Below are positions 10,067 to 39,112 of a stretch of 39,112 bases of DNA, one piece after another; the stretch's first letter is position 1; every line of letters starts with the position of its first letter. The notes below the pieces were generated by a model. It was not told the origin of the DNA and made no database searches. It saw only the letters and a list, made by a program, of their open reading frames with translations. This DNA comes from a virus. Position numbers and translations under genes: made by a program. The stretch is from IMG/VR virus record IMGVR_UViG_3300042887_000364, positions 1-39,112 of that record. One strand, given 5' to 3'.

Positions 10067-10280
10067 CGGTTTCCTCCTGTATCTTTTCTAAATCATTTGT
10101 AAATTGCTCCCAAGCCTTATTGACTTTGGAGTTTCTATTAGCGTTGTAGATTGCTATTTCCATTATCTCTTCTGTAAATGTAGATACAGATGATGCAATG
10201 TTGTGTGCAAATCCTGAAAGGGTAACTAAAAAGTCAGCGAAGTGTACTGGACGCGGAACATCATTGTTATTATTCTCCAC
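10056..10280 (-). CDS. Small acidic protein (74 aa)
   Basis: A 74-residue protein beginning MENNNNDVPRPVHFADFLVT, amphipathic in the middle and charged at the end (WEQFTNDLEKIQEETDG). It starts at GTG 10280, preceded by GAAAGG nine bases upstream, and its last bases overlap the 134-aa gene. No homology is recognised. A TATAAT hexamer lies about 20 bases upstream. Confidence 0.5.
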   Translation of the reverse strand: MENNNNDVPRPVHFADFLVTLSGFAHNIASSVSTFTEEIMEIAIYNANRNSKVNKAWEQFTNDLEKIQEETDGR

Positions 10281-10300
10281 GCCCAGTACCTTTCATTAGA

Positions 10301-10306
10301 ATTATA
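10301..10306 (-). promoter_or_regulatory. Possible internal late promoter (-10 hexamer)
   Basis: On the minus strand the sequence reads TATAAT, a perfect -10 box, in the short gap before the GTG at 10280. No convincing -35 hexamer lies 16-18 bases upstream, so this could be chance in an AT-rich spot. Confidence 0.25.
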
Positions 10307-10447
10307 TTAACCCTTTTTTACCGCGTTGCCGCGACGACCTGCTGGCATCATTGATGGTACTACCTTGCCACCTGCTGGCTTAGAAGTATCCTTCTTGCCC
10401 TCGACTGGCTTTGACATTGGTGCTGCTGCACGTGATCCTTTGTTCAT
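10307..10447 (-). CDS. Tiny basic protein (46 aa)
   Basis: An ATG at 10447 preceded by GAGGGGG opens a 46-residue frame rich in Lys, Arg, Pro and Gly (KPVEGKKDTSKPAGGK, ending RRGNAVKKG). It fills the space between the portal and the 74-aa gene. Basic disordered small proteins recur in this phage near the portal and downstream of the capsid gene. I infer nucleic-acid or scaffold contact but recognise no family. Confidence 0.6.
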   Translation of the reverse strand: MNKGSRAAAPMSKPVEGKKDTSKPAGGKVVPSMMPAGRRGNAVKKG

Positions 10448-10462
10448 ATTTACACCCCCTCT

Positions 10463-12217
10463 TTATGCTGCCCCGCCAATGGCGGCTAGTAGTTGGCCTA
10501 TATCTGGACGTTGAGCAGCAGCGGGTGCGCCTCCTGGTTGTTCTGGAGTTGGCTGCGAGGCAGGGGCAGGGAGTGCTCCCGCTGCTGGAACTTGAGGTGC
10601 ACCTGGCATTAGTTCTGGTGCTACTGGCATCTCTGGCGCAGGTTCTGGCGCAAATGCCTTACCAATAATAGTTTCTAGTTGAAGTCCCTTTTGGCGACCT
10701 TGGATAACTTCTGCGATACGCGTAATGATTTGCGAAGGATCCTGACCTTGCGCTGCAAGGGCTGGAATGGCTTGAGCATACTGAGCAACAGCCACCCGCA
10801 AAGAATCGCGCATTTCTTCGATATCAACACGTTGTTCCTCCTGCGTTACGTTTAACTCCATTGGAATCTCACGACGTACATAGTCACGAGATACGAGTTT
10901 ATCTGAACGCATTTGTAGTAAAGCAATGATGGCACGGTTAGGATCCATACCAGACATAATGCCGTAGCGAACATCTACACCGTAATTGCCATCAATCTGC
11001 TTTGATGGAATGTACTTCATATTAAACGGAGTACCATCATCTACGCCCTTGATTTCCTTTTGCATAGAACCAAAGATCTTCTCATCTACTTCAAAGCAAA
11101 GAGAAGCAAGGTCTGTAAACATACGAGCAAACTGTGCTTGTGCTGACTTAATCTGTGTATCAAAGCCTGCTTGTAGTGCTTGTACACCGCGACCTGTAAC
11201 GATAGATGCATCAATGTTACCTGAGCGAACCTCTGGGTAACGAGAACCTAAACGCAATTCACGCTCTAGTACACCTGACTCTGTAAAGACTCCAGGTGGT
11301 AGTTCCAAAGGAACACGGCGGATACCTTGTGGATTAGCAGAACGCATAATTGCATCTGGACCAAGTGCCAACTCTTGCACATCCTGTGGGATAGCAATAG
11401 GTGCTTGGATAGACTTTTCTGCTGCTTGAATCTGCAATACTGCAAAGCGAGCACGAGCAAGTTGAACTGATAACACATCATCAAACTGTCCACGTGCTTC
11501 ACCATCAATAGATGAGCGCATAGCAACGTATGCCATACACTTACCAATAGGGTTTGGAATGTTTGAGAGTACTAGGTTCTTACGCTCTGGAATAAAGATT
11601 AGATCCTGGTCTTTGTCGTGGTAGCGAACTAGTGACACATAAGGTGAGCCAGGAGAATAGACATTCTTTGGCATAATCTGGTCATAGAACTCTGGGTACT
11701 GCATTGCAAGTGTCTCAGCATCAGATGCCATTACCTGCGTGAGCGAGACGGTACGACCAAATCTATCAATCTCAGGATAAGTACCAAAAGGATTAAGCAA
11801 ACGTATTCTCGGATTATTGGTTTCATAGTCCATCTCCACCATACCTGGCAACATACCGTAGGTGTTAAACCAATCAGCACCAGTATACATTTGAATTTGT
11901 AGTTCAGATGCGCTGATGTAATGGTTAACAATACGAGTACGTGTGTCTGCTGCTTTACGTGCTGAGTCTGAAACCATATTGGTTGCAGCGCAGTTAAATG
12001 ATGGTAGCGGTGCCATTGCTTCTGCAAGGTCACGTGCTGCTACGTCAATAAAGTTAGCAACTAGAGGCTTTGGGTATTCCTCTGAAAACATTGCAGGGTA
12101 AACCTTGCTAATGTCTCCCTGACGTACAGAGAGCACATCACGCATTCTCTGGTCACGTGCGGAGTAGCGCGTCTGTAGGCGATTAACCTTGGCTACTACC
12201 TCTTTAGTTGATAACAA
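10463..12217 (-). CDS. Portal protein
   Basis: A 584-residue protein directly downstream of the terminase, with portal-like order: an N-terminal helical region (RLQTRYSARDQRMRDVL), a beta-rich clip/wing section (NPRIRLLNPFGTYPEIDRFG) and long C-terminal helices. The tail is a Pro/Ala/Gln-rich low-complexity segment (about residues 500-584). Portals form the dodecameric ring at the capsid vertex through which DNA is packaged and ejected. The start is TTG at 12217, with AAGGA six bases upstream. The family match is from overall pattern and position; no single diagnostic motif exists. Confidence 0.8.
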   Translation of the reverse strand: MLSTKEVVAKVNRLQTRYSARDQRMRDVLSVRQGDISKVYPAMFSEEYPKPLVANFIDVAARDLAEAMAPLPSFNCAATNMVSDSARKAADTRTRIVNHYISASELQIQMYTGADWFNTYGMLPGMVEMDYETNNPRIRLLNPFGTYPEIDRFGRTVSLTQVMASDAETLAMQYPEFYDQIMPKNVYSPGSPYVSLVRYHDKDQDLIFIPERKNLVLSNIPNPIGKCMAYVAMRSSIDGEARGQFDDVLSVQLARARFAVLQIQAAEKSIQAPIAIPQDVQELALGPDAIMRSANPQGIRRVPLELPPGVFTESGVLERELRLGSRYPEVRSGNIDASIVTGRGVQALQAGFDTQIKSAQAQFARMFTDLASLCFEVDEKIFGSMQKEIKGVDDGTPFNMKYIPSKQIDGNYGVDVRYGIMSGMDPNRAIIALLQMRSDKLVSRDYVRREIPMELNVTQEEQRVDIEEMRDSLRVAVAQYAQAIPALAAQGQDPSQIITRIAEVIQGRQKGLQLETIIGKAFAPEPAPEMPVAPELMPGAPQVPAAGALPAPASQPTPEQPGGAPAAAQRPDIGQLLAAIGGAA

Positions 12218-19685: not shown

Positions 19686-20079
19686 CTAATACCATCAGTG
19701 CAATAGCACTGTAGTTCAGTAGATCAATAAAGGAATCACGCAGTGACTCGTTCTCTGGTGTTGCACCGCTATCAATCAAGTGGTTGATGCGTGCAGTCTT
19801 ATCGTGCATACGCACACGCAAACCATTGAGAGGTCCACCTGGAGACAGACTTATGTTAGTAGGACCGTAGTCCTTGTGCTTCTTGATGAGCAGGTTGCCC
19901 GCTGCATCTAATACTTCCCACATATCAACAACAAACTTAACGTGCTGGTGATCTATCTTGTCGGCAATGGCCTTATTAAGACTGTCTCCTGTGATAGATC
20001 GTGGCTTAGGATTTGGAAGCCCAAATGCTGCAAAGTTTGTAGCATCGTGACCCATTCGCTCTCGGTCATTGTCATACAT
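19663..20079 (-). CDS. DUF1599-like (nucleotide-modification-associated) protein
   Basis: 138 residues from ATG 20079, which has GGAGG six bases upstream; a TTG one codon earlier is less likely. The core KKHKDYGPTNISLSPGGPLN, then RMHDKTARINHLID and SLRDSFIDLLNYSAIALMVL, matches the DUF1599 / Nmad1 pattern, an all-alpha NTP-pyrophosphatase-like (MazG-related) fold found in phages. It may act on nucleotide pools or modified nucleotides. It overlaps the primase TOPRIM gene's stop (TGATG). Confidence 0.75.
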   Translation of the reverse strand: MYDNDRERMGHDATNFAAFGLPNPKPRSITGDSLNKAIADKIDHQHVKFVVDMWEVLDAAGNLLIKKHKDYGPTNISLSPGGPLNGLRVRMHDKTARINHLIDSGATPENESLRDSFIDLLNYSAIALMVLDGTWPRD

Positions 20080-20720
20080 CAAACGCCTCCAAATAATTTC
20101 AATGCCTCATCTTTACCGTGTGTAAGGTAGAAGTCATTGATGTCCATTGATGGTGGTAAGGATACTATACGTGAGTTCATTACCTCTTGTGACACACGAC
20201 GAGAGAACTCTGCACCAGGGTTGGTGCCATCCTCTTTGATGTCGTTGTCACCTACTATGTACACGGTGTCATAGCCTGTAAATAACTTATTAAAGTGTGG
20301 CTTCCAAGCCTGCACTCCTGGTACTCCAACCGCTGGTAGGTTCAAGATACCTGATACAACTACCGCATCTAACTCACCTTCACATACAACTACAACAGAT
20401 GAATCAATGGTGATGTCAGCAACGTTATACAGGTGACCCTTCTGTCCTGCTGGTGCACCATATCTAGGCTTGCCATCATCTAACCTGCGAAACTTTACTC
20501 CCACACACATACCAAGTGCCGTCAGATAGGGCACAGAAAGCCAGCCCGTGTGGGTTTCGTGACCATTGATGGGATCAGTTACAACACCCAACGAAAACTG
20601 TTGGGCAACATCTTCAGAGATTCCACGTCCTTCGAGGTAGGCCAGCGCCTTTTCGTCCAGGTTTTTGCTGTAATGTGTGACCGCTTCCAGCAGCGATTTC
20701 GATTGCTCTTTTGAGTGCAT
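20079..20720 (-). CDS. DNA primase, TOPRIM-containing half
   Basis: A 213-residue protein with primase layout: LAYLEGRGISEDVAQQFSLG (YL..RGI..D....F.LG), then VCEGELDAVVVSG with the catalytic Glu at about 114, and VYIVGDND with the metal-binding Asp pair at 158/160. The zinc-binding domain is encoded by the overlapping upstream gene in another frame, so the primase is split. The TOPRIM domain provides the nucleotidyl-transfer site for RNA primers. The overlap with the zinc half spans 107 bases. Confidence 0.85.
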   Translation of the reverse strand: MHSKEQSKSLLEAVTHYSKNLDEKALAYLEGRGISEDVAQQFSLGVVTDPINGHETHTGWLSVPYLTALGMCVGVKFRRLDDGKPRYGAPAGQKGHLYNVADITIDSSVVVVCEGELDAVVVSGILNLPAVGVPGVQAWKPHFNKLFTGYDTVYIVGDNDIKEDGTNPGAEFSRRVSQEVMNSRIVSLPPSMDINDFYLTHGKDEALKLFGGV

Positions 20721-20991
20721 CCTTAAACTCCAAGTTCTCTATAATACCGACAACATTTACTGCGTTGCCACCCTTTCCACAGGTGTGACAAAAGAATAGG
20801 TTGTCATATGTATTGATGACAGCACTACGCCTTTTGTCTGGGTGGATGCAGCATCTAACAGATGCGCTCCTACCTTCTCTTACTTCCCCACCATAGTGAA
20901 GAACGATTGCTCCTATGGGGATTGTGTTTGCATCAACGGGACCTTTGAACCCTCCCGCTTTACGTACCCTGGACCAGTCTTGTGCTGGCAT
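20614..20991 (-). CDS. DNA primase, CHC2 zinc-finger half
   Basis: 125 residues from ATG 20991 (GGGG upstream; the frame continues to 21012 without a better start). CCIHPDKRRSAVINTYDNLF followed by FCHTCGKGGNAVNVV is a CHC2-type zinc finger (Cys/His at about 47-50, Cys68, Cys71), the template-recognition domain of bacterial and phage primases. It ends after a short basic tail, while the TOPRIM half starts inside it in the +1 frame. The two probably act together, or are fused by frameshifting. Confidence 0.8.
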   Translation of the reverse strand: MPAQDWSRVRKAGGFKGPVDANTIPIGAIVLHYGGEVREGRSASVRCCIHPDKRRSAVINTYDNLFFCHTCGKGGNAVNVVGIIENLEFKDALKRAIEIAAGSGHTLQQKPGRKGAGLPRRTWNL

Positions 20992-21092
20992 ACACACCCC
21001 TTGTCGTTGCACTTGTCGTGATACTTAGCAGCACGTTTGTAATGGGCTAGTGAATTTTCTACACCTGCATCCATACAGTTATTACAAATCAT
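20913..21092 (-). CDS. Small Cys-rich zinc protein (59 aa)
   Basis: ATG at 21092 overlaps the upstream stop (TAATG). The 59 residues start MICNNCMDAGVENSLAHYKR and continue CNDKGCVCQHK. CxxC plus C..C.C.H could bind one zinc ion. The C-terminal part is a basic tail that overlaps the primase zinc gene by 79 bases. The function is unknown. It is adjacent to replication genes. Confidence 0.65.
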   Translation of the reverse strand: MICNNCMDAGVENSLAHYKRAAKYHDKCNDKGCVCQHKTGPGYVKREGSKVPLMQTQSP

Positions 21093-23638: not shown

Positions 23639-24580
23639 TTACTTTCCTCCAGTTTGTTTGATTTGTAACCGCTGTGATTCACTGCCAAACTTCCTAGGTA
23701 CAAACCCAAGTAGTTTTTCTACCTCTTCACTGTCAATACTTTCACGACCCTTGACAGTTGTCCAACTGACTTCTACTCCACTAGGTGTTGTACCTAGTAG
23801 TCCTTCAAAAGAAGTCTTCAAAGAATCTTGATGCTTTTCTAACTCTCTAATCTGCGCTGCTAATTGTAAGTACAGCAGTGCATTTCTGTCAATATCAGCA
23901 TCATCAATGATTACATCACTGACTGCCGTATGTTCTTTTTTTATACCAACGCATCCCATCTCACCTGATGCATCGTAGAACTTGCAATAGAACTTACAGT
24001 AACTACTATCTCGTTCTGGATCTGGTGCCTCTGTTGCTACCTTGATTGCTTCCAGCCAGTTCAATGCTTGCAGTGCAACTGTCTCATCATAATCTTCTGT
24101 ATGTACCTTGATGTCTCGCTCATCACCATCACGTGCAATGGCAACTAGTGACACACGCTTTACATCGTGACCGTTCTTTGCTAGTAGGTAGCCGTATGTC
24201 TGTACCTGCCAACGCTGTTGTGTTGTTGGGAAGTATGAAAGGTTCTTCACCTTACTTGTCTTCCAGTCAATGACATCTCCAGTACCAGGTACGAAGCAGT
24301 CAATGTGCGCTTTCATTCCGTTGTACTCAACTGCAGTTTCAATCAGCACATCTGGGTTATCTGCTAGTGCTCGCTCAATCTCTGCGTGGATAGCAGTACC
24401 CATAATGGCTGCTAACTTCATCTCGTTCTCATTGGTTTCAGGTTGATCGTTTAATCTGTACCAGACCTTACGACGACAGCCACCTAACTCTGATGGTCCT
24501 ATCTGTACCTGTGTAGATCGTGAACGCTTAGCATCACCTGCACGTAGTGCGGTCAGTAATAGTTCTTTGGGATCTGTCAT
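23639..24580 (-). CDS. Cas4/RecB-like PD-(D/E)xK exonuclease with Fe-S cluster
   Basis: 313 residues. His65 in GTAIHAEIE, Asp94, and the catalytic strand DVIDWKTSK (Asp105, Lys107) followed by QVQTYGYLL make the RecB/Cas4 nuclease core. Cys35, Cys195, Cys199 and Cys210 are spaced like the cysteines of the 4Fe-4S cluster in Cas4/AddB. No CRISPR array or other cas gene is present, so it is a phage recombination nuclease. It starts at ATG 24580, overlapping the upstream stop. Confidence 0.9.
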   Translation of the reverse strand: MTDPKELLLTALRAGDAKRSRSTQVQIGPSELGGCRRKVWYRLNDQPETNENEMKLAAIMGTAIHAEIERALADNPDVLIETAVEYNGMKAHIDCFVPGTGDVIDWKTSKVKNLSYFPTTQQRWQVQTYGYLLAKNGHDVKRVSLVAIARDGDERDIKVHTEDYDETVALQALNWLEAIKVATEAPDPERDSSYCKFYCKFYDASGEMGCVGIKKEHTAVSDVIIDDADIDRNALLYLQLAAQIRELEKHQDSLKTSFEGLLGTTPSGVEVSWTTVKGRESIDSEEVEKLLGFVPRKFGSESQRLQIKQTGGK

Positions 24581-24816
24581 AGTCCATTCCTTATTGTGTC
24601 GAGTACTCGTTCCTTAAACATAACTGTAGCCCCAGTATCATCTGTCCAGTTCTGTAAGGTTGCTACTTCTAATGCAATTTTCTCACGTAATTCTTTTTCA
24701 ATCCTCTTTGCTTTGAGATCGCCCCAAGTTTGTTGCTCTCTCATTACTTCTAGTCTGCCCCACATCCAACCCATTTTGTGGAAGTGTTGTGCAGCATACT
24801 CATCTGTCATATGCAT
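24577..24816 (-). CDS. Unknown helical protein (79 aa)
   Basis: 79 residues, mostly helical and charged (WGDLKAKRIEKELREKIALE), with Met/His/Trp near the N-terminus (AQHFHKMGWMWGRLE). AGAGGA lies upstream of ATG 24816. It is located between the peptidase and the Cas4-like nuclease, with a four-base overlap with the latter. No family is recognised. Confidence 0.6.
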   Translation of the reverse strand: MHMTDEYAAQHFHKMGWMWGRLEVMREQQTWGDLKAKRIEKELREKIALEVATLQNWTDDTGATVMFKERVLDTIRNGL

Positions 24817-24821
24817 CTTTG

Positions 24822-25379
24822 CTACATCCTCTCCTGGACTACTAACTGTATGGGCTTACCAGTATTAGAGTCAAGGACCGAAGCAATCTCTACGGCTTTA
24901 CGGGCGTGTCTCTTTGCATAGGCTAACTCTATATCAGGTTTGACAATTGAATACAGGTAGCCAAGAGCAAACTGCCCACCACTACCAATAGCGTACGCTC
25001 CGACATTACTTTGGAAAAAAGAGAGATCACAAGCAATCCTAAAGACATTGCCGTTAAAAGCCACGAGATAATCAAAACCGCCATCTTTGTCCACCTTGTT
25101 GTAGTCGTAGTTGTTGTCTGTAAATGCTTGGTTGATACTGGGTATAACTTTCTTACCCATAAATTGTGCTGGTTCTTCGCCACGATACAACGGTGGCTTC
25201 CAGTTGTACGACAGGATATCTCCTGGTCGTGTATCACCTGAGATACCGATGAGAAACTTACCAACCTCAACGATCTTAGGTGTACTGGTTGCTAACGTGA
25301 CGAGATTATCTTCTGTGATCTGTGAATCTGCCACGAGTACTGCATAGTCAATACCCTCTATCGCTGCGATTGTTGTCAT
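24822..25379 (-). CDS. Proteasome/HslV-like Ntn-hydrolase peptidase
   Basis: 185 residues from ATG 25379. After removal of Met, the N-terminus reads TTIAAIEG like HslV. Counting Thr2 as Thr1, Asp falls exactly at 17 (VADSQIT) and a Lys (TPKIVEVG) near 33. GISGDT, then YAIGSGGQFALG (the Ser129 turn) and Asp near 169, complete the Ntn set. These enzymes degrade proteins in ring chambers; no HslU or ARC partner is seen in the window. An ATG four codons upstream (MIVSM) lies inside the -10 box and is disfavoured. It is the first gene of the leftward early operon. Host-protein turnover is my inference. Confidence 0.85.
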   Translation of the reverse strand: MTTIAAIEGIDYAVLVADSQITEDNLVTLATSTPKIVEVGKFLIGISGDTRPGDILSYNWKPPLYRGEEPAQFMGKKVIPSINQAFTDNNYDYNKVDKDGGFDYLVAFNGNVFRIACDLSFFQSNVGAYAIGSGGQFALGYLYSIVKPDIELAYAKRHARKAVEIASVLDSNTGKPIQLVVQERM

Positions 25380-25449
25380 ACTGACAATCATACTGGGTTA
25401 ACGGCGTGTCGTCGCGTAGCGACACCTACTGGTTACTACAATATGAGCC
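25380..25449. promoter_or_regulatory. Divergent promoters, both candidate leaderless
   Basis: On the minus strand TATGAT (25387-25392) ends seven bases before ATG 25379. On the plus strand TACAAT (25437-25442) ends seven bases before GTG 25450. Transcription starting about seven bases after each -10 would begin at the start codon itself. Between them lies a dyad, GTGTCG-N8-CGACAC (25406-25425), which also contains GTCGC-GTA-GCGAC. Neither promoter has a canonical -35, so the dyad is a likely activator or repressor site. Confidence 0.6.
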
Positions 25450-25746
25450 GTGAGGCGAATAAAACAGGGTGCCCCGAGGGGGCACGATGGTGCAGTACTG
25501 ACTTTGCGGTTCCGTCTACCAAGGCTGCCAAAATTTAGGGCTAAACTACCAGATAAATTTGGTACTGACCTGCGTGGCTTAGGTCCAGTACACGTCTGTC
25601 CTTGTGGCTCACAAGTCTTTTCTATAATGGCATCCTTTGAAGATTACGAACTAGTCTGGTACTTCCTTGACGGTACCTGTGTTAACTGTGGCAACATCGT
25701 AACTGTCCCCTGTCCAGTAGATAAAGATGAATCACAGACTCTCTGA
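25450..25746 (+). CDS. Zinc-ribbon protein (98 aa)
   Basis: GTG at 25450 gives 98 residues. The first 35 are basic (RFRLPRLPKFRAKLP) and the C-terminal half has VCPCGSQVF, then FEDYELVWYFLDGTCVNCGN, a four-Cys zinc ribbon. It may be DNA- or protein-binding. The start is uncertain, because no Shine-Dalgarno is seen. The -10 placement suggests leaderless initiation. It overlaps the HNH gene by 20 bases. Confidence 0.65.
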   Translation: MRRIKQGAPRGHDGAVLTLRFRLPRLPKFRAKLPDKFGTDLRGLGPVHVCPCGSQVFSIMASFEDYELVWYFLDGTCVNCGNIVTVPCPVDKDESQTL

Positions 25747-26851: not shown

Positions 26852-27046
26852 TCATTTCTCTGCAACTAATCGGTACAGGTCATCTATGCGTTCTTCTAAT
26901 CTTGTGACTGAATCTTTAATTGATGAACCACCATTAGGCTTGAGTTCATTGAGGTAATGCTTAACCATCCAGCGCACTGCTGCAGCAAAGCCACCTACTA
27001 TTGTGCATACTGCAACAGCAACTGTTGCGTAGTCTTGTGCCTGCAT
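26852..27046 (-). CDS. Membrane-anchored coiled-coil lysis protein (64 aa)
   Basis: 64 residues. There is one hydrophobic span at about 7-29 (ATVAVAVCTIVGGFAAAV within it), then a basic linker and a coiled-coil end (SVTRLEERIDDLYRLVAEK). The layout is like XhlA-type lysis proteins, which assist holins. It overlaps the start of the upstream tail gene by one base and precedes the endolysin by six. Confidence 0.7.
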   Translation of the reverse strand: MQAQDYATVAVAVCTIVGGFAAAVRWMVKHYLNELKPNGGSSIKDSVTRLEERIDDLYRLVAEK

Positions 27047-28956
27047 TAGACCGTCCTAATTGTGACTAGAAGTAAACCGCCATACCCTGAAAACCTTTTA
27101 TCTGATGGTGTGTTGTTTCTAAAATCCATTTCCTCAATGATGCCAAGGTATGACTCACCAGTTCTAAAGTCTTGAATCTGGATGGTGTCTCCATTGTTTT
27201 CTATTAACTCTAGTTGTGACATACGATCATAGGCTGCACCTTCAAAGCCAACTTCAACTCCGAAGTGATCTGTCTCGTGGTCAAAGCAAGACAATGGATA
27301 CTGGATGAGTCGCTGACGTGGTGTTGCAGGTAGTGAACGTAATTGGTAACCAGTAAACAATGGTCCCTTAGTTGAATCAGTACTAGAGCGAGTCAGTGTA
27401 AACTTAAAGCCAAGATACTCTTGGGCAGTTTGTGGATAGTTAATGTTGATCTGAGGTACTGCAGACTCTTGACCAAAGACACCGATAGTGTAGAAGTTAT
27501 TAGAAGCATCTACTGATTGGATAGTAACGCCACCATTGGTAGTATCTACACGAGCCTGCATCAACTTAAAGATCTTAGCCTCTAGTGTGTTGTATCGGAT
27601 ATAACCAGTACGCAAGTAGCCACTTGGTACTAGGTTAGTTGTAGATTCTGCCCAGGTATTATTGCCATTGGTAAATGCAATCCTGTCTGAGTTACCAAAG
27701 AAAGCAATCTGGCTGGCAGTAGTAGTAGTTCCAGTTGCAACCAAGTCCCAAGCCCAAGGAAAGAACAGAGAATTAGCAAGGACTATTGTAGATAGATCTA
27801 CTCGTACAAGTCCTGCTGCTCCATCTACTAAAGTTGTAAGGTAGGCAAAGCGGTCTTTGAAAGCAATAGCATTACACGGTGCATCATCAAAGAGCACTGG
27901 TCCATACTGGATATCTCCATTGTTATCTGCCACACCTACGCGAAATCCTGCACTTGTTGCAAGGACTGCATAGACACCAAGGTAGACATCAAAGTCATTG
28001 ATGCGCTCACCATTAGGCATATCAATAATAACTGTAGGAGTATTAAGTGTTGGGAAACCAAGAGTATTAGGAACTGCGGCATCTAAAGTAATCTTAAAGA
28101 CTGCAGATGATGAACCGTTAGGTGCATAGCCTGAGACATAGATAGCCTGTGGACCTTCTGCAATAGATGACCAGACCCAGTTAGGATTAGGGTGTGTATA
28201 CAAAGCAGTAGGTAAGGCTGCAGCACCTGTAGCGTTAGCGTTTAATTCATACAAAACATTTTCTTTAGCCAGGATAAGGCGCTGCTTAACAAAGCGAATG
28301 GTTGCCCTTGTTGTAGCCGCTGCTGCATAGATCTCAGCATCGGCAGGAGATGCACCTACTGAACCCTTATGAACGTGTGTGCCATTGATAAAGTAATAGT
28401 TAGAGCCATCAGTTGTAAGGCTAAAGATAGTCGAAGCCGTACCAGCCTGAGAGATAGTTGTGTTGGTACCACCACTTGTAATCTTCTTGAGTGCAGTGCC
28501 ATCTGTCACAAAGATGCAGTCATTGGTACCATCATTGACACCGATCAACTGGGCAGGTGCAGCACCAGCATAGAAACTGGCTGTGTCATAGAGCAGGGTA
28601 GCCTGTCCTCTAGTCCAGACATCTAAGCCCTTAGACTCTGTGTACTGGAAGCGTAGCGACTCTTCCTGCTGTGGTTCAAAGAACTTAATACCAGCGCCAA
28701 GGTGAAAGGATGATTGGCTGCGTAGCCACCAACCAGTCAGAGTCTGTTCTCCAGCCTCACGTGTCTGGTCAATCTGTTGCTTGCGATACTGGGCTGTAAC
28801 ACGACGATAAGGTGCATCATCAGAGTTAAGCAAGAAGAACGGTAAACCTGCAATAGCCACATCGTATGCCTCAGTGGTGCCTGCATAAGTAGTAGCACCT
28901 GAAGGATTGGATAGTACGTAGGGTATTCCCTCGGTTATATCGTCACCGTATGGCAT
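27046..28956 (-). CDS. Large beta-rich tail protein (636 aa)
   Basis: A 636-residue protein with repeated short beta motifs (TTISQAGTASTIFSLTTDGS, later LIGVNDGTNDCIFVTDGT-like blades), suggesting a beta-propeller or multi-sheet tail component. The C-terminus has a strand-rich module ending GGLLLVTIRTV. It lies between the recombinase and the lysis genes, in the tail and receptor-binding part of the late module. I infer a tail tube or nozzle-associated role; no enzymatic motif is seen. Confidence 0.65.
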   Translation of the reverse strand: MPYGDDITEGIPYVLSNPSGATTYAGTTEAYDVAIAGLPFFLLNSDDAPYRRVTAQYRKQQIDQTREAGEQTLTGWWLRSQSSFHLGAGIKFFEPQQEESLRFQYTESKGLDVWTRGQATLLYDTASFYAGAAPAQLIGVNDGTNDCIFVTDGTALKKITSGGTNTTISQAGTASTIFSLTTDGSNYYFINGTHVHKGSVGASPADAEIYAAAATTRATIRFVKQRLILAKENVLYELNANATGAAALPTALYTHPNPNWVWSSIAEGPQAIYVSGYAPNGSSSAVFKITLDAAVPNTLGFPTLNTPTVIIDMPNGERINDFDVYLGVYAVLATSAGFRVGVADNNGDIQYGPVLFDDAPCNAIAFKDRFAYLTTLVDGAAGLVRVDLSTIVLANSLFFPWAWDLVATGTTTTASQIAFFGNSDRIAFTNGNNTWAESTTNLVPSGYLRTGYIRYNTLEAKIFKLMQARVDTTNGGVTIQSVDASNNFYTIGVFGQESAVPQININYPQTAQEYLGFKFTLTRSSTDSTKGPLFTGYQLRSLPATPRQRLIQYPLSCFDHETDHFGVEVGFEGAAYDRMSQLELIENNGDTIQIQDFRTGESYLGIIEEMDFRNNTPSDKRFSGYGGLLLVTIRTV

Positions 28957-34540: not shown

Positions 34541-36152
<1,612 letters not shown>

Positions 36153-37970: not shown

Positions 37971-39112
37971 TTATCCGTTTGTTGCTGCAGACTCAATGCG
38001 ATAGAGCGCTGCTTCACGAAGGCGTGCAAAGCCTCCGAAGTAGTACCAACCGATTGTGCGGAAACGACGTAGTGCGTCAATCTCTGGACCGATAACGGTT
38101 GAGATGTCTGCAGCCTGTGCTTCAGCCAATGCTTCACGACCAGCGACGATTGCGCGGTAGTTGTTGGTAAATGTAACAGTACCTGTGTCAGCAACTGATG
38201 TAATGTTAGATGCTGTAAGTGCATAGGTAAATGTTGTTGATGTTGTACCTGTGATGGTATATGTGCCGTTAACACCTGTGTTAGTTGTAGCAGCAACTGT
38301 TACAACCTGACCTGTTCCGAGGCCGTGAGCAACTGCTGTAGTAATTGTTACTACGTTAGATGTCAAAGCAACGTTGGTGATAGCAACTGTAGGTGTGATA
38401 CCTGTAGACAACTTTAGACCGTTAAGAACGCGAGGTGTCTCAACGATGAAAGCGCCTTCGATAACGCCTACTGCACCAGCAACGAACGGTGTACGCTCAA
38501 CGTACTTTGTTAGTTCCTGGAAGCCACCTGTACCAGTTTCAGCGCGAAGATCGGCTGACTGACGTGGGTGTAGGTATGCAGCATATAGTTCACCCATACG
38601 AGGCAATGCCTTGTTTGTGCGTAGTGATACAACAGCGTTACGGATGTCCGCAACTGTCATTGTGTCTACTGGGAGGATTCCTGATGATGCAGTTGGAACA
38701 GTTCCTGATGGACCGTTTGAGTAGATCACGTTAGTTCCTGCTGAGAGGACCTGACCTACAACGTTGTCAATAGAATCTGCTGCGTTGTACGCGATGATGT
38801 CAGCAAGTGCTGAATCAACATCGTTGAAAGAAGTTAGGTTTAACTTCTTTGTTGTTGTAACTGCTGAACCGTATTCGTTCAGTGTTACTGTAACCTGTGA
38901 TGGGTTACCTAGTGCAATGCTTGATACATCTGATGTTTCTGTCAATGTAGAAGTAGCCTGAGCCAAATCTGAGTAGATTGAGAAAACAACTGATGATCCT
39001 GGCATTGCCTGTTGCACTGGCTTAACATCTGCAAGTGAACGCATAACAGGAATGGAACGTAGTGCCATTCTTACATACTGATCGTATGCTGCTTGTACGA
39101 GGTTGCTGATGC
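37971..39112 (-). CDS. Major capsid protein, N4-gp56 type: main piece
   Basis: This continues from 1-343 on the closed circle; the full protein is 392 residues. N4-gp56 hallmarks are GSSVVFSIYSDL, LTETSDV, VTLNEYGSAV, the helical AYNAADSIDNVVGQVL, LHPRQSADLRAETGTGGF and GVIEGAFIVETPR. An extra beta-rich module (full-length residues about 251-329, bases 38163-38399) containing VAHGLGTGQVVTVAA and GTYTITGTTSTTFTY interrupts the C-terminal third. The fold resumes at NNYRAIVAGREALAEAQ. It forms the icosahedral shell. Confidence 0.9.
   Translation of the reverse strand, partial: ISNLVQAAYDQYVRMALRSIPVMRSLADVKPVQQAMPGSSVVFSIYSDLAQATSTLTETSDVSSIALGNPSQVTVTLNEYGSAVTTTKKLNLTSFNDVDSALADIIAYNAADSIDNVVGQVLSAGTNVIYSNGPSGTVPTASSGILPVDTMTVADIRNAVVSLRTNKALPRMGELYAAYLHPRQSADLRAETGTGGFQELTKYVERTPFVAGAVGVIEGAFIVETPRVLNGLKLSTGITPTVAITNVALTSNVVTITTAVAHGLGTGQVVTVAATTNTGVNGTYTITGTTSTTFTYALTASNITSVADTGTVTFTNNYRAIVAGREALAEAQAADISTVIGPEIDALRRFRTIGWYYFGGFARLREAALYRIESAATNG
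38807..39112. repeat. Right copy of the imperfect terminal overlap
   Basis: This is the partner of 1-306, with a constant offset of 38806 and no insertions or deletions. Joining the ends across it restores an uninterrupted capsid reading frame, so it marks the circular junction of an approximately 38.8-kb genome. Confidence 0.95.

Follow-up and report, generated by a model that had tools for sequence, protein, structure and literature searches.

A proteasome/HslV-type peptidase gene in two genomic positions, with a putative metalloprotease substitute, in viruses related to freshwater actinophages

For BPH (betaproteobacterial proteasome homologue) and Anbu, the bacterial proteasome homologues that lack an unfoldase, structures exist, and we know of no substrate or in vitro activity for either. 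As a rule, the rings of proteasomes and of HslV cooperate with AAA+ partners. Across the family, Thr1 is established as the nucleophile, with Asp17 and a lysine residue as helpers (PMC5777263, PMC8665760). The BPH proteins were inert on standard substrates, yet their Thr1 bound epoxomicin (PMC5777263). Proteasome homologues encoded by phages are already known, both as the sequence family PHROG_1040 and as the PPH and AAH described in 2021 (PMC8665760). The window analyzed here (the complete stretch of 39,112 nucleotides from the IMG/VR virus record IMGVR_UViG_3300042887_000364) encodes one more viral homologue. The reading that we prefer, with a probability of about 0.55, is that its product is an active, probably ring-forming, unfoldase-independent accessory protease that acts early on some protein.

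The initial annotation reported a proteasome/HslV-like peptidase at 24822-25379; the coordinates are correct, and the gene runs on the minus strand, from 25379 to 24822, whereas the plus strand of this interval contains stop codons throughout. The 185-aa product, which starts with MTTI (MTTIAAIEGIDYAVLVADSQIT...PKI...YAIGSGGQFALG...SVLDSNTGK), matches Pfam PF00227 (Proteasome) with an E-value of 5.5e-12 and a score of 46.2 bits, where 22.4 is the cut-off; its match to PHROG_1040, “peptidase HslV family”, has an E-value of 8e-30. The latter family is matched alike by the window protein, by the homologues encoded next to portal genes and by those of large phages. Together with a confidently predicted Ntn fold, these matches confirm that the gene product is a proteasome/HslV-type Ntn peptidase. 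Homologues were confirmed in at least 592 IMG/VR stretches, and predicted structures of viral proteasome-like proteins, some of them labelled HslV or proteasome subunit, are present in BFVD. An alignment of 14 phage homologues is too diverse to contain a stretch conserved enough for scanning.

The AlphaFold2 model of the peptidase, built with 42 sequences (the window protein and homologues from IMG/VR and from genome contigs), has a mean pLDDT of 90.3 and a pTM of 0.86, and shows sandwiched sheets with flanking helices, as in the Ntn hydrolases of PF00227. A Foldseek search started with this model identifies BPH (5ovs) as the top match, with an E-value of 4.5e-12 and a TM-score of 0.77, followed by HslV and 20S beta subunits, and VIA-align yields Z of about 20 over 164-173 residues against 20S beta and BPH chains. 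A profile made only from phage members reaches BPH (5ovu) at 5e-9 and HslV at 2.5e-7; a BPH E-value of 1e-44 was discarded, given that the underlying alignment included BPH-like rows, and the value from the phage-only profile is the fair one. The fold, on which the initial annotation had made its assignment depend, is thus that of an Ntn hydrolase in the model and in both structural comparisons.

The start of the gene is accompanied by a conserved promoter signature (Table 1). A longer reading frame starting at 25391 (MIVS-) was rejected: its ATG lies within the -10 box TATGAT, and most relatives lack the extension. All 74 distinct upstream sequences of the clade to which the window belongs (hereafter, the early clade) contain TANNNT 5-8 nt before the ATG, against a background of 2.6% of the ATGs in the window at large with TANNNT 6-7 nt ahead. 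In 73 of these 74 sequences, there is also a GACACGCC-type box, usually 28-31 nt ahead of the ATG and matched exactly in the window, and a Shine-Dalgarno-like stretch is found in only 3; a scan of the rest of the window for further CGACACGCC promoters found no more of them than expected by chance. TANNNT located about 12 nt upstream is a published mark of leaderless genes, which are common in Actinobacteria (PMC3160421). Since the signature matches this rule, we infer that the peptidase gene is the first reading frame, located at the extreme 5' end of a leaderless operon mRNA.

Table 1. Features of the peptidase locus and of the corresponding head-module site (window coordinates)
Feature	Position	Strand	Remarks
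Interval behind the portal gene (10463-12217)	10067..10462	-	Site of the peptidase in sister phages; here two small ORFs, no peptidase
Cas4/PD-(D/E)XK-type exonuclease	23639..24580	-	One flank of the protease slot
79-aa ORF, no family assigned	24577..24816	-	Follows the peptidase gene in the operon; varies among relatives
HslV/BPH-like Ntn threonine peptidase	24822..25379	-	185 aa; assigned by Pfam, PHROG, structural model and conserved residues; predicted removal of Met would expose Thr1
-10 box TATGAT	25387..25392	-	7 nt before the ATG; leaderless promoter signature
Conserved promoter element CGACACGCC	25403..25411	-	About 30 nt before the ATG; within a larger inverted repeat
p98, divergent 98-aa gene	25450..25746	+	Borders the protease slot on the other side; no PHROG match

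Downstream of the peptidase gene, the operon consists of the 79-aa ORF and genes for the Cas4-like exonuclease, WhiB, DnaB-like helicase, RusA-like nuclease, primase and a sigma factor, so that the earlier description of the peptidase as the first gene of the replication operon is correct for the window. The primase (20079-21012) is encoded by two overlapping ORFs, one for the zinc-ribbon part and the other for the Toprim part, and this split is kept in relatives. The inverted repeat that encloses the promoter element (GTGTCGC..GCGACGACAC) is located at 25393-25425, occupies the same place in the window-like loci L001-L080, and seems to retain pairing via paired changes in relatives (e.g., GTTGC..GCAAC in L008). 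It may serve as an operator for p98 and the peptidase gene, which are divergent.

The WhiB gene points to an actinobacterial host. Phages E7 and F5 (OX376640 and OX376641), which are relatives of the window phage, were cultured on LanE-43, a ‘Ca. Planktophila’ strain that belongs to the freshwater order Nanopelagicales (PMC10202952). The F5 record encodes capsid, scaffold, helicase, primase, endolysin and tail proteins related to those of the window; at the nucleotide level, the part of OX376640.1 that was compared shares less than 1 kb with the window, at about 79%. The window phage likely infects Nanopelagicales as well. A single scan of genome contigs, which could have fixed the host through an integrated copy, identified no close relative in integrated form, and its homologues were all distant ones from proteobacteria, planctomycetes and archaea; a plasmid search gave only distant rhizobial and Paraburkholderia matches, and a literature search found no report naming a proteasome in ‘Ca. 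Planktophila’. Among the structural genes of the window, the capsid query (37971-39068) matches a stretch inside the tail protein gene (27046-28956) in many relatives (e.g., L007 and L013), and therefore the capsid and tail proteins probably share an inserted domain. The region 34541-35818 encodes a collagen-like protein with Gly-X-Y repeats, which cause a long open frame on the opposite strand.

Wherever the flanking genes are visible in the window-like group (L001-L080), the peptidase gene lies between p98 and the exonuclease, and the loci selected with the helicase have it in the same slot whenever both flanks are shown, with the exception of L304, where a 111-aa HExxH protein (L304:1991-2326) takes its place. 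A search started with this protein identifies 44 loci, in 41 of which (among L425-L465) the gene is located exactly between p98 and the exonuclease, and a similar promoter precedes it in 25 of 34 distinct upstream sequences. The HExxH gene is absent from all 306 peptidase loci, and a search that detected both positive controls did not find it in 20 phage records (the window and 19 other contigs); conversely, none of the 14 HExxH contigs of 28-44 kb contains the peptidase, which the same search finds in other contigs. In the genomes tested, the two genes are mutually exclusive.

The HExxH protein is a probable metalloprotease. Across 24 sequences, His53, Glu54, His57 and one Glu further downstream do not vary, and the model has a pLDDT of 87.7; the assignment goes no further than probable because the best fold matches, abylysin and IrrE, are weak (E-values of 0.02-0.04) and the Pfam matches to DUF6782 and M78 fall below the respective cut-offs. 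The metallopeptidases of the IrrE/PprI and minigluzincin type, which have in common with this protein the HExxH motif and the downstream Glu, are relatives of the replacing protein, not of the peptidase, and all its matches to them are sub-significant. The position of the HExxH gene suggests that its product shares the role of the peptidase. The virus seems to require a protease as such, not specifically one of the proteasome type, because sister viruses either carry the enzyme gene next to the head genes or have the HExxH gene in its place. It is possible, although we propose this tentatively, that these freshwater actinophages reserve the first slot of the replication operon for a protease. 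An unfoldase-free chamber of the proteasome type and a metalloprotease of the minigluzincin/IrrE-like type could then stand in for each other because each eliminates, within minutes of the start of infection, one and the same host factor, either a defence protein or a regulator of the repressor type.

The second position is seen in the E7/F5-like group (L084, L085 and L093-L172), in which the peptidase gene always lies directly behind the portal gene. The portal-linked copies have Shine-Dalgarno-like starts in 45 of 48 distinct upstream sequences and no TANNNT at 6-7 nt, and these starts, combined with the location in the head module, suggest late expression in the sister phages. None of the 80 loci fetched with the portal of the window carries the peptidase behind the portal gene, and each of the 18 long contigs tested contains exactly one copy. 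In a tree rooted on BPH, the early copies group together (100/99) and are nested within the portal-linked ones, the head position is spread across several deep clades, and a single clade of portal-linked copies is rejected (p-AU 0.03); the linking branches have moderate support (90/84 and 94/99), and long branches are in play. This topology makes the early-operon position of the window a derived one under the BPH root, and the simplest history would be a single transfer of the gene, out of the head module and into the early operon. In the large actinophage DSL-LC01 (L083, an Actinomycetia phage), the peptidase comprises 229 aa and is directly followed by a WhiB gene.

These positions raise the alternative of a head-linked protease that processes or removes the scaffold or internal proteins of the virion, or that is itself packaged and then ejected into the host, with the window clade having moved the gene and kept the job. 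All 80 loci fetched with the homologue from a cultured phage, and most of those fetched with that phage's portal, have the gene directly behind the portal (11 portal-selected loci have no peptidase there), the nesting in the tree agrees with a head-module origin, and the late expression of one group could be squared with the early expression of the other if the enzyme were packaged and ejected. We nevertheless regard this explanation as doubtful: in the window clade, the gene has its own promoter and heads the replication operon, the metalloprotease replaces it in that slot, and the capsid protein, on inspection of the sequence, has no obvious long N-terminal delta domain. In particular, an obligatory capsid protease is unlikely because relatives with similar head genes have neither protease, namely two contigs of 37-40 kb, G020 and G025, whose portal is 86% identical and whose scaffold and capsid belong to the same families; a third protease of unrecognized type, or missing sequence, is possible in these two. 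G020 and G025 (L469/L470 and L471/L472) have a different early module, with a protein of about 330 aa (MTIATKHKSAWVRGG..) encoded upstream of the nuclease and helicase. The initial suggestion that the gene, lying outside the head module, is unlikely to encode a head protease is weakened by the location behind the portal in sister phages and by the derived position in the window; the relatives without the peptidase and the metalloprotease swap still speak against an obligatory role in the head.

The window protein resembles BPH and differs from E. coli HslV in the stretch that corresponds to the BPH pore loop. This stretch consists of 15 residues with a net charge of -2 in the window protein; among the rows of the early clade and the portal-linked group, its length is 13-19 residues and its net charge acidic. 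In the same columns, E. coli HslV has 6 residues and the BPH-like rows have 20 or more, with a net charge of -4 or lower. The window, as noted in the initial annotation, contains no recognizable unfoldase gene: searches with AAA (PF00004) and AAA_2 (PF07724) found no match, with 14 of 14 controls detected, in a record that may be incomplete, and there is no match to Pup (PF05639) in the window either. Folded substrates would accordingly require a host unfoldase, and this bears on the proposal that the peptidase ring binds to an AAA+ unfoldase of the host and thereby redirects the degradation of proteins in the cell. That reading is rather unlikely, considering that BPH, the nearest structural relative, has a similarly long acidic pore loop but no known unfoldase partner (PMC5777263).

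A non-degradative task of the Ntn enzyme, e.g., as a connectase-like ligase or an amidase, has a precedent in connectase, a monomeric protein ligase of the proteasome superfamily (PMC8665760), but is improbable here. The window protein has the compact beta-type fold with both helix pairs, whereas connectase lacks the first pair and contains an insertion at the active site (PMC8665760); the slot swap with another protease-like gene is also at odds with such a task.

Counted from Thr2, the window protein contains Asp17, Lys34 (the equivalent of Lys33, shifted by one inserted residue), SGG at 132-134 and Asp169. Among 215 distinct homologues, the Thr1 position is occupied by Thr in 211 and by Ser in 4, all of which are bacterial proteins; the Asp17 equivalent is Asp in all 215, the Lys33 equivalent is Lys in 214, with the exception of E. 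coli HslV, which is most likely a one-residue misalignment, and the equivalent of the oxyanion Gly47 is Gly in 210. The full catalytic set proposed from the single sequence is thus retained in the relatives; its loss there would have refuted the assignment. The residues listed at that stage are all in place in the window protein, but Asp169 is not a defining residue because Asp is found near this position in 135 homologues and varies in the rest. The median dN/dS of the window gene against 112 relatives is 0.10, and this value, combined with the conservation, is the pattern expected of an active enzyme rather than a decoy. An inactive decoy that poisons the host proteasome or HslV through co-assembly, one of the roles envisaged initially, is compatible with homology as such but highly improbable, because Thr1/Ser1, Asp17 and Lys33 are essentially invariant under purifying selection (dN/dS about 0.1).

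The preferred reading, an early-acting accessory protease, would involve the following mechanism. After removal of the start Met, Thr1 would attack the peptide bond, assisted by Asp17 and the Lys33 equivalent. By analogy with BPH, the protein most likely forms a closed homo-oligomeric ring, with the active sites inside and the acidic pore loop at the entrance, which would work without a phage-encoded unfoldase; the parsimonious assumption is that such a ring accepts unfolded or flexible substrates without ATP. Of the roles envisaged initially (a rival, a decoy or an independent chamber), a putative independent chamber thus fits best. In the window clade, the replication operon would yield the peptidase first, from a leaderless mRNA, and the enzyme therefore should appear at the onset of operon expression. 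It would then cleave or clear some host or early phage protein, with host defence or regulatory proteins as candidate targets as infection begins. A narrow substrate specificity is plausible given that BPH is inert on standard substrates. The function is best described as accessory and replaceable, because the HExxH metalloprotease can occupy the same slot.

For this viral member of the family, the place in the genome is defined and the moment of action is likely known from it; a natural catalytic substitute occupies its slot in other phages, and the cultured phages E7 and F5 encode relatives. What such chambers do can therefore be tested directly, and this in phages of bacteria that are dominant in freshwater. 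A proteasome-like peptidase, which may or may not be an AAH, is encoded by hundreds of IMG/VR contigs from putative actinophages, whereas no AAH was reported for Actinobacteria-specific phages in the 2021 survey (PMC8665760).

Among the described systems, BPH (PDB 5ovs, 5ovt and 5ovu; PMC5777263) is the best Foldseek and profile match to the window protein, and the two have in common the Thr1-Asp17-Lys set, the lack of a propeptide, the elongated acidic pore loop and no known partner unfoldase. They differ in that identity is only about 22-24%, and BPH is chromosomal and the window gene viral. BPH forms a tetradecameric double ring, an assembly that the window protein may share. In the tree rooted on them, the two solved BPH fall outside all phage rows on a long branch (100/100), and with midpoint rooting BPH groups with the bacterial rows, not with the window protein. 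HslV (ClpQ of HslVU) has the same fold, the same MTTI- start and catalytic residues in register, but the window protein does not reach the cut-offs of the HslV equivalogs (22.3 against 157.75 bits for TIGR03692 and 23.1 against 137 bits for NF003964), its pore loop is longer, and no HslU-like gene was found in the window. As to the beta subunit of the Pup-proteasome, the window protein gives no TIGR03690 match, and there is no Pup match in the window. The AAH and PPH (Fuchs, Alva and Lupas 2021, PMC8665760) are compact group I homologues encoded in phages without an associated AAA+ gene, as in the window; PPH, however, comprise about 140 residues and lack helix H2 (PMC8665760), whereas the window protein has 185 residues and both helices in its model (50-58 and 70-88). 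PHROG_1040 is a sequence family named by homology, to which gene position, promoter and protease swap do not belong. What is new in the present locus and its relatives is the polymorphism of position, the leaderless-type signature of the first gene, the mutually exclusive HExxH substitute, and the abundance of the peptidase in putative freshwater actinophages.
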